NCBI GenBank assembly: GCA_949285105.1 | Contig: CASDXH010000010.1 | Coordinates: 1-35,408 of the forward strand | DNA length: 35,408 bases | Source: an uncultured Mycoplasma sp. | Lineage (GTDB): Bacteria; Bacillota_I; Bacilli_A; Mycoplasmatales; Mycoplasmoidaceae | Direction of reading: 5' to 3' | Part shown: one piece after another, positions 31,052 to 35,408 of the stretch | Numbering within the stretch: position 1 is the stretch's first letter | Layout of the letters: each line of letters opens with the position of its first letter | Translations under genes and position numbers: made by a program | Notes under the pieces: model-generated | Told to the model about the DNA's origin: nothing | Seen by the model: only the letters and a program-made list of their open reading frames with translations | The model's database searches: none

Positions 31052-31058
31052 TTACCTA

Positions 31059-31090
31059 AATAACAACTAATAATGTTGTTATTTTTTTTA
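31059..31090 (+). terminator. Terminator of dnaJ-grpE
   Basis: A perfect 9-bp stem (AATAACAAC at 31059-31067, GTTGTTATT at 31075-31083), a 7-nt loop and a run of T. It starts 7 nt after the grpE stop. Confidence 0.88.
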
Positions 31091-31120
31091 TAATTCAACA
31101 TTTAAAATTGGAAAACAACG

Positions 31121-31244: not shown

Positions 31245-32075
31245 ATGGCAGACAAAGAATTGAAAGAAAAAGATCTTACTAATGAACAAGATACAGAAAA
31301 TAAATCTTTAGATTACGAATATGATAGTGAAGAGTTTAAAAGAAACCTTACTTTATATATAAGAATTATTGATAAGAGTGATGAGGTTGTAGGAGTTATT
31401 TATAAATTCATGAACAAAACTCTTGATGCCCCAACTAAAGCCGAAATAGATTTGTACCGTAAATCCATTATCATGGCACTAAGAAAAGGTAATCACAAAA
31501 AATATGGTTACTTATACAAAATAATCGCTAAAAATATTTACGATTATAAAGAATTTGTAAGAGATGAAAATCAAAAAGCTCAAAACCAAGTAATTATAAA
31601 TCCAAACATTTTTGCAATTTCTTGAAATGATTTACAAGCTAATATTAAAGATAAACTTAGAAATACTGACTCTGATATGATATCACCAGCAAGTCTTGAA
31701 AAAGCATATAAAGATGAATTGGATAAAGTTAAAAAATTATATGAAAAACTTAGAGACATGAGAGATAACGGTGTTCCAGTTGCAGATGATGCAATTGATA
31801 TGACAAGATCTACTATGTTGAAACTAACTGACTTGGTAAATATTTTTATGTTAGAAAATTTTGATGAGTTGCAACCAATGATGCAAGAAATTCAAATATT
31901 CGAAAAAAACCATGTATTTTCAACAGAAAAAGAAAATTCAATTTTTATTGATGCCAATTTTAAAAACATTACTAATTTGGCTCAACCAAGAAAAGATACA
32001 GATGCTGCTACAAAAAAATACGTAGATGATCAACTAGAAAGAATTTGAACACATTTAGGAAAAACAAAAAATTAA
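31245..32075 (+). CDS. 276-aa protein with a C-terminal phage tail-fibre-like motif
   Basis: Not recognised as a whole. It is the first gene of the ravA-viaA-type operon (ATG 31245; two TGA(Trp) codons; TAA 32073-32075). Residues 1-25 are acidic and polar. Residues 25-120 are helical and charged. Residues 140-235 are rich in Lys/Glu/Asp/Met and probably helical. Residues about 241-265 read NITNLAQPRKDTDAATKKYV followed by DDQLE. This is the ItNLaxPxxxxDAatKxYVDxxL motif that recurs in phage tail-fibre proteins, often at the base of a trimeric fibre or before a coiled coil. There is no signal peptide or membrane segment. It may be the adaptor or the client of the ATPase encoded next; that is an inference from operon order. 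Confidence 0.82.
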
Positions 32076-32102
32076 TTTTAAATATTGATATGGAGAATTA
32101 TT

Positions 32103-33827
32103 ATGGAAAACAATAAAAATTTAAGTATGAATTCAGAATTATATGAAAAAGTTAAACAAGAAGCAGAATGAATTAGAAATGCAGCAAAAAATGTTGTTAA
32201 CAAAATTGCAGCTGATTTGGTTGAAAGAGAAGAAATTTTAAAACTTTCGTTTCTATGTGCTCTAGCTGGTGAATCAATTTTCATGTTAGGTCCTCCAGGG
32301 ATTGCTAAATCGCTGGTTTCTAGAAAAGTAGAAAGCATTTTTAAAAAAGCAAGTTCATTTGAAGTTTTGATGAATAGATATTCTACTCCAGACGAAATTT
32401 TTGGTCCGATTGACATTACAGAATTAAAACAAGGTAAATATGTTAGAAAAATTGATGGATATTTACCTGATTGTAATATTGGGTTTTTAGATGAAATTTG
32501 AAAAGCGAGTTCATCTATTCAAAATGCTCTTCTTATGATTATTAATGAAAAAATATTTATTAATGATGGTAAACCTACAAGAGTTCCGTTAGCATTGTTA
32601 ATTGCAGCTTCAAACGAGTTACCTGAAAGAAACAAAGGTCTTGAAGCCTTATGAGACCGTTTCATTATTAGAGTTGACATGAAGCCAATTCAAAATGAAG
32701 AAAAATTCATTGAACTATTTACTAACACTGCAAACTTACTTGATAAACAAAACATTACTGATGATGAAAAATTTGATCTTAGTGTTGTTCAAAAAATTGC
32801 TAAAAATGCTGAATATGTAGAAATCCCAAAAAATATTAGAGCATTCATTTCTTTATTAAGAAAGAAAATTGTTGAATTCAACAAGAGAGAGTTAGAAAGA
32901 AACCCAGAAGCAAATGATTTTGATCTAATTTATGTTTCTGACCGTAAATGAAAAAAAATTGGAAATCTTTTAAGAGTTGCTGCATTTATTAATGGTAGAT
33001 TATATGTTGATATTACAGATTGTTTCATTTTAGAAAATGTTATTTGAAACAACCCAACTCAAATTCCTGAAATTAAGCAAATGATCAATGACTGTGCTTC
33101 AAGTATTGAATATGGTATTGATGGAAGATACTCATATGCTATTGAATCTTTCAACAAAATTAGAGAAACAATAATTGATAACATTGCAATTCACGAAGTA
33201 AAAACAGATGTAATCATTAAATCTTATAGAAACAAAAGTGATGTTTACTACTACTTCATGGATGCTGATAAAAATAAATTCTTCTTCAAAAAAGAAGACA
33301 TTGATAACATCCCTAAAAACGAAAATTTCGAAGTTATGGATTGAATGCTAAATTATTGTACAGCAGATGAATTTAAAACTAGTGTTGCTCCATCAAGAAA
33401 AGCATTATTAAAATACGATGGTACTAACTTCTATTTATACAAAGACAATGATGAAAATGGTGAAAAGATAAAAATCTATACAAACTTTGAAGAAAAAGAA
33501 GTTGATCACTACAGATTAATCAGACCAACAGTTGAATTCATTAAAGATATCAAAAACACTGCAACTGCTTTAATCAACAGAATTAACAGTGACATTGAAA
33601 CTTTAAAAACATTAAGAAACAAAAAGTTTGCTGACATGAAAGCTTCTAACCTATTTGTTGAAAACAAAAGTTTAGGATTCTTACAAGAAGCAATCAACAA
33701 CTCAATCTTAGTGTTAGAAGACATTGTTGACAAGATAAAAGATATGTTTGTATATGTTAAATTAATTAACTACGGATTTACTACAAAAGATAAACAAAAA
33801 ATCTTACCAGCACTTGATTTACAATAG
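32103..33827 (+). CDS. ravA: RavA-type MoxR AAA+ ATPase
   Basis: A 574-aa ATPase of the MoxR family, RavA group. Walker A is GPPGIAKS at residues 63-70. FEVLMNRYSTPDEIFGPIDI, then GYLPDCNIGFLDEIWKAS with Walker B D130-E131, match E. coli RavA closely. Sensor 1 is AASNELPE, and the arginine-finger region is GLEALWDRFIIR. The C-terminal 250 residues are helical and probably hold the lid and an accessory domain; they are longer than in E. coli RavA (498 aa). A GGAG site precedes ATG 32103, and the gene lies 27 nt after the tail-fibre-motif gene and 26 nt before the VWA gene. RavA-ViaA pairs act as a chaperone-like system in E. coli, linked to stress and respiratory complexes; the substrate here is unknown. 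The symbol is by homology. Confidence 0.87.
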
Positions 33828-33853
33828 TTTTTAAATTTTAAAGTCAATAACCC

Positions 33854-35260
33854 ATGGAATTAAATTTAAAAGACATGATAGTTGATTTATTAACTAATAG
33901 TGAGACTACAGTTAATAAATTATATGAATTTGTAAATGGTAGCGGTAGTAAACCAAATCGTAAAGAGTTTGAAACATTTAGAAAAGATCTGATTAACTCA
34001 GTAAAAAAGAAAAAAGAAAATGCACTAGAACTTTTCCCAATAATTAAATACTTTGAATCTAAAAGACTAACAGAAGAAGATTTACAAAATGATGAAACAC
34101 TATTTACTATTCCATCAGAAGAAAGAATAGCAATTGCTTCTCCAATTGAAATCTTACAAGAAGTGCCAGAAAAACAAGATTACAACATGCACTTCATGTG
34201 AGATAACATTGATATTGAAGAAAGAGAATCTTTAGTTTATAAAGCTTTTAATAATTATTATGAAATTATTAAAGATGATGAAAACATTAGAAAAGCTATT
34301 CAATCCTGAGGTACTTTTGTTGAAAAAAACTTGTTCATCACTCAAACAGAACGTGATTTATTTTTAGAAGATATTCCACAAGAAGTTTTCTCTCTGCACC
34401 AAAGTGATAACTTAAGTGGATTATTACCTACAGAAATTGCGCAACTTGATGATCCAGATTTAGAGTTAGTATTCTATAAGAACTTTGTAGAAAAGAAATT
34501 ACTTTCTTACCAACTATGAGGGATTGAAAGAGAAATCGTAGAAGAAATTGATATCTTTGAAAAAGATATAAAAGATAGAGGTCCACTTGTTTTATGTGTC
34601 GACACTAGTGGTTCTATGAGAGGTTTGAAAGAAATTTTCTCAAAAGCTATTGCTATGGTAATAGTTAATATTCTAGAAGAACTTAAAGTTAATGTTATCT
34701 TATTAACTTTCTCAACAAAAGCTAGATCAATTGATCTTTCAGATTCAAAAAATAAACTTAAATCAACAAGAGATACTTTTAAAAAATCATTCTATGGTGG
34801 TAGTGATATCTCTGTTGCGATTGATGAAATATACAAAGTATTGGGAAATAAAAAACATAGAAAAGCAAATATATTGATTATTTCAGATTTCTTGTTTAAA
34901 AATCCAAGTAGAGAAACTCTTCAAAAGATTAATAAACTAAAAGAAAGAGAACATCATTTCCACTCTTTAAAAATTAACAACAAAGATAACAAATCAACAT
35001 TAGAAACTATGTTTACAACAAACTGAGCTTATAAATATAATTTCAATGGTTTAAATCTTGAAGAAGATGAAGAGGAAATGATTAATGAAATTGCTGAAGC
35101 AAATGTTGCAAGCAAAAACAATCTAGAAACAATTAAAGCGTTTGGTTTTATTAAGAAAATTAAGGATTGGGATTTTGTTGCTAAGACTGATGAAGAACTT
35201 AAGCAAGAAGGACAAAATGTTGACCAACCAGCTGATAATCCAGCTCCATTGGATATTTAA
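33854..35260 (+). CDS. viaA: ViaA-type VWA-domain protein
   Basis: A 468-aa partner of the ATPase encoded just upstream. The N-terminal half (1-240) is helical and acidic, as in ViaA. GPLVLCVDTSGSM begins the C-terminal von Willebrand A domain. D250-S252-S254 form the DxSxS part of the metal-ion-dependent adhesion site; the third MIDAS element is GGSDI (about 316) and the fourth is ISDF. The family usually has Thr where this protein has Ser in GGSD. A hydrophilic tail ends in PADNPAPLDI. The frame crosses several TGA(Trp) codons; one Trp is TGG. The Shine-Dalgarno sequence is weak, so translation may be coupled to the ATPase gene. Confidence 0.87.
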
Positions 35261-35318: not shown

Positions 35319-35408
35319 TGACATGTGAAGTGCAACACTCAGAAAAAAAGAGTGTGCACTTCATTTGTTTTATTTGTAAGTGTTCACCAATAAAAAGATA
35401 ATAAGTAT
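35319..35408 (+). mobile_element. IS30-like element, 5' end only
   Basis: The left terminal repeat (35319-35339, TGACATGTGAAGTGCAACAC and one more base) is the exact reverse complement of the repeat at 122-142. Inside it, GAAGTGCAACACTC (35327-35340) pairs with GAGTGTGCACTTC (35350-35362) with one bulge. This makes a hairpin at the very start of the element, a position where insertion sequences often block transcription entering from outside. The transposase start lies beyond the window. Both IS30-like copies face the same way. Confidence 0.72.

Follow-up and report, generated by a model that had tools for sequence, protein, structure and literature searches.

The window analyzed here, a stretch of 35,408 nt, corresponds to contig 10 in the genome of a mollicute (Malacoplasma; 1.06 Mb) that uses genetic code 4. 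Tryptophan is encoded by TGA, as at W127 of a 276-aa protein that we call P0001, where the residue is part of an SW pair that is invariant in the family alignment. Under this code, the three open reading frames (ORFs) that a sequence-only reading had placed at the locus were all found at the coordinates it gave; they encode P0001, a RavA-type MoxR AAA+ ATPase, and a ViaA-type VWA protein (Table 1). All three genes lie on the forward strand, with 27 nt between P0001 and the ATPase gene and, as reported earlier, 26 nt between the ATPase and ViaA genes. Their neighbors in the window are dnaJ, grpE, DUF3196, and DUF402. The ATPase more likely starts at the ATG at 32103 than at 32085, given a GGAG at 32092. 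Because predicted hairpins follow both grpE and viaA, the trio probably forms a single transcription unit distinct from dnaJ-grpE, and the hairpin 3' of viaA is its probable terminator. None of 200 shuffled sequences folded as well as the grpE-side hairpin, which was absent from the output of a consensus scanner owing to its A+T-rich stem. A simple consensus scan detected no excess of promoters or terminators, and the boundaries of the unit rest on the predicted folds.

Table 1. Features of the P0001-RavA-ViaA locus (positions in the window)
Feature	Position	Strand	Remarks
Terminator-like hairpin, 10-bp stem then U run	31058..31091	+	3' of grpE; -8.6 kcal/mol, z -4.6
P0001, 276-aa third component	31245..32075	+	ORF, code 4
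ViaA-type N-terminal helical domain of P0001	31332..31574	+	residues 30-110, core 37-95
Fiber-neck motif of P0001, SIFIDANFKNITNLAQPRKDTDAATKKYVDDQLE	31938..32039	+	residues 232-265; predicted trimerization element
RavA-type MoxR AAA+ ATPase, 574 aa	32103..33827 (alternative start 32085)	+	AAA+ and lid ~residues 24-337
C-terminal domain of the ATPase	33135..33824	+	residues 345-574; specific to P0001 carriers, plus one degenerate homologue (G011)
ViaA-type VWA protein, 468 aa	33854..35260	+	VWA ~residues 243-375, MIDAS DTSGS 250-254
N-terminal domain of ViaA	33854..34093	+	residues 1-80; common to ViaA and P0001
Strong hairpin then T-rich stretch	35325..35370 (hairpin ~35325-35362)	+	3' of viaA; -25 kcal/mol, z -4.9, 0/200 shuffles

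The best NCBIfam match of the ATPase was RavA (E = 2e-74, residues 38 to 337), and the solved RavA structure 3nbx matched residues 24 to 337 (E = 3e-76). Its Walker A (GPPGIAKS) and Walker B (FLDEI) motifs are intact, and the AAA domain also matched Pfam bpMoxR. The best NCBIfam match of the VWA protein was ViaA (E = 4e-45), with residues 171 to 399 aligned to positions 249 to 479 of the 487-position model, and all nine members tested matched this model; the MIDAS motif DTSGS is intact, and the gene adjoins ravA. Both proteins scored below the respective equivalog cutoffs, the ATPase with 251 against 681 bits and a match that stops at residue 337, and the VWA protein with 155 against 500 bits, and we therefore treat them as RavA-type and ViaA-type relatives rather than equivalogs. 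The "clear RavA signature" of the sequence-only reading holds for the MoxR AAA+ assignment and the best family, and its ViaA-type MIDAS protein for the VWA/MIDAS domain, the best family, and the position beside ravA, but neither protein reaches the equivalog level. The lack of an LdcI counterpart, first remarked on for the window, was borne out more widely: no gene of the LdcI family (OKR_DC_1) was found in six carrier genomes tested, in a search for which control genomes gave positives.

The C-terminal domain of the ATPase was missing from the RavA partners of the other mollicute MoxR-VWA pairs examined. A poor model of the ATPase (seven alignment rows; pLDDT, 40), on which no claim was based, predicts a helix-beta-helix order that is suggestive with regard to the RavA criterion of a LARA domain between triple-helix segments with LdcI as the partner. 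One genome from a different genus of the family encodes a RavA homologue (G011:C2:67085-68782; L067:8586-10292) that retains the C-terminal domain (E = 3e-20) but in which neither Walker motif (A or B) is still recognizable; it is flanked by neither a VWA gene nor a P0001 gene and is possibly a pseudo-ATPase.

Domain scans placed P0001 in no Pfam or NCBIfam family, and no domain other than the two elements described here was recognized. Toward its C terminus, PHROG tail-fiber, tail, and head-decoration profiles matched residues 235 to 263 (E = 3e-5 to 1e-4), and phrog_6518 and phrog_2647 were matched by all 11 P0001 members tested. Against the PDB, the P0001 family profile gave weak best matches (E = 0.02 to 0.7), mainly to trimeric phage tail spikes or fibers and to the trimeric autotransporter adhesin AtaA; a ribosomal protein, which is unrelated, was also among these matches. 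The segment that had originally been likened to the base of phage tail fibers is thus no chance resemblance and scores as a fiber neck, not as a generic coiled coil. Every P0001 member retains it, even where overall identity falls to about 40%, and at E below 0.2 it occurs in Malacoplasma genomes in P0001 only. A survey of alpha/beta coiled coils describes a homologue of the short neck of trimeric autotransporters ("TAA short neck homolog"), DPTANDHAATKAYVDKAISELKKL, in the tail-fiber hyaluronidase of an S. pyogenes prophage (PMC4786415). The P0001 segment QPRKDTDAATKKYVDDQLERI closely resembles it and shows the same pattern. In the necks of fibers and autotransporters, beta structure passes into a trimeric coiled coil (PMC4786415, PMC7247746), and we infer that P0001 may trimerize through its neck; a stable trimer is not certain because the helix that follows is short (about 15 to 20 residues).

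The middle region of P0001 is strongly conserved and helical. No signal peptide or membrane segment was evident by eye, and P0001 therefore fits a cytosolic partner. Neither a single-chain model of the protein (mean pLDDT, 56) nor the ATPase model gives support for docking, and a fold search with the weak P0001 model returned no PDB match below an E value of 0.5. Searches of viral contigs, phage records, and plasmids found no full-length relative, the phage likeness being limited to the motif. We rejected P0001 as a phage tail fiber protein, as it does not lie among phage structural genes and has no full-length phage relative. Elsewhere in the order, the neck motif also occurs in mollicute prophage-like ORFs, one of which is present in several copies in a 2.1-Mb mollicute genome (L013, ORF of about 601 aa; G038, about six places); such ORFs are a possible source of the P0001 neck.

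At its other end, P0001 resembles the neighboring co-chaperone. When a P0001 profile was searched against whole genomes, the N terminus of the adjacent ViaA was matched in two of them (E = 1.3e-4 and 1.6e-4), and hhalign aligned P0001 residues 37 to 95 with ViaA residues 8 to 65 (E = 5e-5; probability, 67%). A hidden Markov model (HMM) of the ViaA N-domain recovered 12 of 12 P0001 proteins (E = 8e-8 to 4e-5), whereas the best E value was 0.15 in a background set of 1,754 ORFs, to which several hundred sequences had been added in shuffled or reversed form. The reverse search was weaker: the P0001 N-domain HMM matched 9 of 12 ViaA proteins at 9e-4 or better, one further ViaA at 0.017, and one at 0.08, while reversed sequences reached about 0.01. 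With a joint profile of the two N-domains, exactly two places per carrier genome were found at E < 1e-20, namely P0001 and ViaA, and three non-carrier genomes gave no match. By these comparisons, about 80 N-terminal residues of P0001 are homologous to the N-domain of the adjoining ViaA, a relationship newly recognized here. P0001 and the ATPase itself, when compared, showed no homology.

This ViaA-type domain had gone unnoticed in the sequence-only reading, and it lends independent support to the idea, raised there, that P0001 is an adaptor; docking through the domain would be its putative role. The E. coli-type N-terminal part of ViaA (NTV) had no detectable match in Malacoplasma ViaA, in which only residues 171 to 399 align. 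In other mollicute ViaA-like proteins, similarity to the ViaA profile begins only at position 94, and none of the other mollicute MoxR-VWA pairs examined had the N-domain. Outside the carriers of the trio, neither P0001 nor the N-domain of ViaA nor the C-domain of RavA was seen, with the degenerate RavA of G011 as the sole exception; the three elements therefore travel together, a pattern typical of parts in contact.

The trio was found in 12 genomes: all 10 sampled Malacoplasma genomes, G010 from a different genus within the family, and G157 from a different mollicute family. The order P0001, RavA, ViaA is constant in all of them, so that the neighborhood survey proposed in the sequence-only reading found P0001 conserved beside ravA-viaA in related genomes (12/12). 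Flanking genes vary; none is common to all carriers, and the most widespread is present in 7. Overlapping draws of genomes from the order (320), the class (296), and the phylum (392) yielded no further P0001; the only other matches were to the short motif or to the N-domain of ViaA, except for a single marginal one (G236). This last match was small and was discarded, as the region around it was unrelated and neither the MoxR nor the VWA profile matched nearby. Identity to congeners other than the nearest was 72 to 81% for P0001, 73 to 84% for RavA, and 46 to 57% for ViaA; P0001 is as well conserved as the ATPase, and its higher conservation relative to ViaA marks it as a core part. The earlier remark that the system was kept in a reduced genome calls for caution: the trio is missing from the majority of the genomes sampled in this family. 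In G157 (L066:7506-8865), a stop or frameshift divides ViaA between two ORFs, with P0001 and RavA intact; the machine may work there without ViaA, or the split may be an assembly error.

Between G010 and G157, identity was 55, 52, and 41% for P0001, RavA, and ViaA, respectively, compared with 37, 40, and 25% between G010 and the window genome. DnaJ showed the opposite contrast (34% between G010 and G157 and 42% between G010 and the window genome), and the DnaJ of G157 groups with its own family. These values suggest a transfer of the trio from one mollicute lineage to another, but faster evolution on the Malacoplasma branch would account for the contrast as well. We dropped a tree-based proof of horizontal transfer, as an unrooted split of three lineages is uninformative, and the identity contrast remains.

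Several further arrangements were seen around these genes. An 82- to 83-aa gene lies directly upstream of P0001 in 6 of the 10 Malacoplasma genomes (L025 to L028, L030, and L031), where it is preceded by an alpha/beta-hydrolase-like gene; not being universal, it was rejected as a part of the system. The closest relative (L023) has a transposase-like ORF of 324 aa (IS30-like by eye) between grpE and P0001. One Malacoplasma genome (G006) carries a second, distant MoxR-VWA pair without P0001 (L074:6868-9936). In three other mollicutes of the order, a protein of 206 to 222 aa precedes a MoxR-VWA pair (L071:8401-9021, L072:6443-7102, and L073:6661-7329). These proteins are mutually similar and have several apparent membrane segments, and thus a different third gene occupies the same position.

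Among known systems, E. coli RavA-ViaA is the best family match for both proteins and likewise pairs a MoxR AAA+ ATPase with an adjacent VWA protein. The Malacoplasma locus differs from it in scores that fall short of the equivalog cutoffs, an added third gene, the absence of the LdcI family, and a ViaA in which the E. coli-type N-terminal part is unrecognizable. NorQ-NorD, CbbQ-CbbO, and other MoxR-VWA pairs resemble it in combining a motor with a VWA co-chaperone for the remodeling of a dedicated client (PMC9976466), but the literature searched describes no trimeric third adaptor for them. The MoxR-vWA ternary systems (PMC7159879) also comprise three genes around MoxR and VWA, and the AAA domain here matches Pfam bpMoxR; the third component, however, is without their defining domains, and the trio is conserved in a lineage that is reduced and unicellular. 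With the short necks of phages and autotransporters (S. pyogenes prophage hyaluronidase, 2C3F; AtaA, 3WPR), P0001 shares the pattern NITNLA-P-DAATKKYVD and a beta strand followed by a helix, whereas its own neck is C-terminal, has no fiber shaft or receptor-binding part attached and no apparent export signal, and sits beside an ATPase. The virion-associated MoxR ATPase of Acidianus two-tailed virus ties such an ATPase to a virus particle, but the similarity is limited to the AAA+ region, with no link to P0001. In the open-access literature, we found nothing naming M. penetrans with MoxR and nothing on MoxR-VWA pairs in Spiroplasma; MoxR and Mollicutes were co-mentioned only in passing, which is not proof of absence.

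RavA-type ATPases are hexameric motors, and ViaA-type proteins are their VWA co-chaperones. From the observed gene order, co-inheritance, shared N-domain, neck motif, and intact ATPase and MIDAS motifs, we propose, with confidence that is evenly balanced, that P0001, the ATPase, and the ViaA-type protein make up one ternary MoxR-VWA remodeling machine in which P0001 is a trimeric adaptor lacking a VWA domain. P0001 would then be a dedicated second adaptor beside ViaA. Its ViaA-type helical N-domain would dock it on the ATPase or on ViaA, its conserved helical middle would bind the client or act as a stator, and its C-terminal phage-fiber-type neck would hold three copies together; such a trimer would fit the six-fold ATPase ring, with two subunits per arm. 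The N-terminal part of E. coli ViaA binds RavA and alone suffices for this (PMC9489729), a result that carries over to Malacoplasma only by analogy because the N-domain has no detectable match to that part. For NorQD, a proposed model has the hexamer pore plugged by a single VWA partner, with the client bound at the MIDAS of that partner (PMC9976466); the ring plug in this model is the VWA domain and not the N-domain, which counts against our explanation.

P0001 could instead be the client, a structural and perhaps cytoskeletal trimer that RavA-ViaA assembles or remodels, and we regard this as a lesser but real possibility. The shared N-domain would then serve as a handle for recognition by ViaA through like-with-like pairing, in keeping with the dimeric state of E. 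coli ViaA. The gene for the client often lies next to those of a MoxR-VWA pair, and P0001 is highly conserved and carries a structural trimerization motif. On the other hand, a second adaptor would more naturally have a domain in common with the co-chaperone than a client would, the known pairs act on large enzymes or membrane complexes, and P0001 has no other recognized domain. The same paralogous N-domain, present without a VWA domain, would also suit a regulator that competes with ViaA for its site on RavA and switches the motor off or into another mode, with trimerization raising avidity. We think this unlikely, since the conservation of P0001 exceeds that of ViaA, suggesting that it makes more contacts than a pure competitor would need, and its middle region is strongly conserved as well.

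The remaining readings set P0001 in other contexts. A biological-conflict system akin to the MoxR-vWA ternary (VMAP, iSTAND, FtsH, beta-propeller) systems would share the MoxR-VWA core with a third gene, and a sporadic distribution with possible transfer between families would agree with it. Pfam scans of the three proteins, however, revealed no effector domain, VMAP, iSTAND, FtsH, or beta-propeller, and PADLOC gave no meaningful match; a hit to DpdF (E = 0.009) in which no stretch passed alone was judged to be chance. As every sampled Malacoplasma carries the conserved trio, unlike a fast-evolving defense locus, we hold this reading to be quite improbable. More improbable still is that P0001 is the remnant of a prophage fiber gene that came to lie beside ravA-viaA by chance. 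The fiber motif and the mollicute prophage-like ORFs that bear it speak for such an origin, but no phage, plasmid, or viral contig searched encodes the whole protein, its N-domain is related to ViaA, and its strong conservation and fixed order in 12 genomes contradict the reading.

Within the ternary machine that we favor, a more specific and more tentative proposal, to which we give somewhat less than even weight, is that P0001 is a three-fold adaptor, combining a ViaA-type docking domain with a phage-fiber neck, and that the neck sets the symmetry with which the client is presented to the six-fold ring. We found no description of a three-fold adaptor on a six-fold MoxR ring in the open-access literature searched. 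A phage structural motif would here apparently have been reused inside a cytosolic chaperone. The settings to which RavA-ViaA has been tied in E. coli, namely respiratory complexes, membrane lipids, and aminoglycoside entry, are largely missing in wall-less fermentative mollicutes. A compact ternary version, whose third component shares a docking domain with ViaA, would offer a small system for testing how MoxR machines recognize their adaptors and clients.
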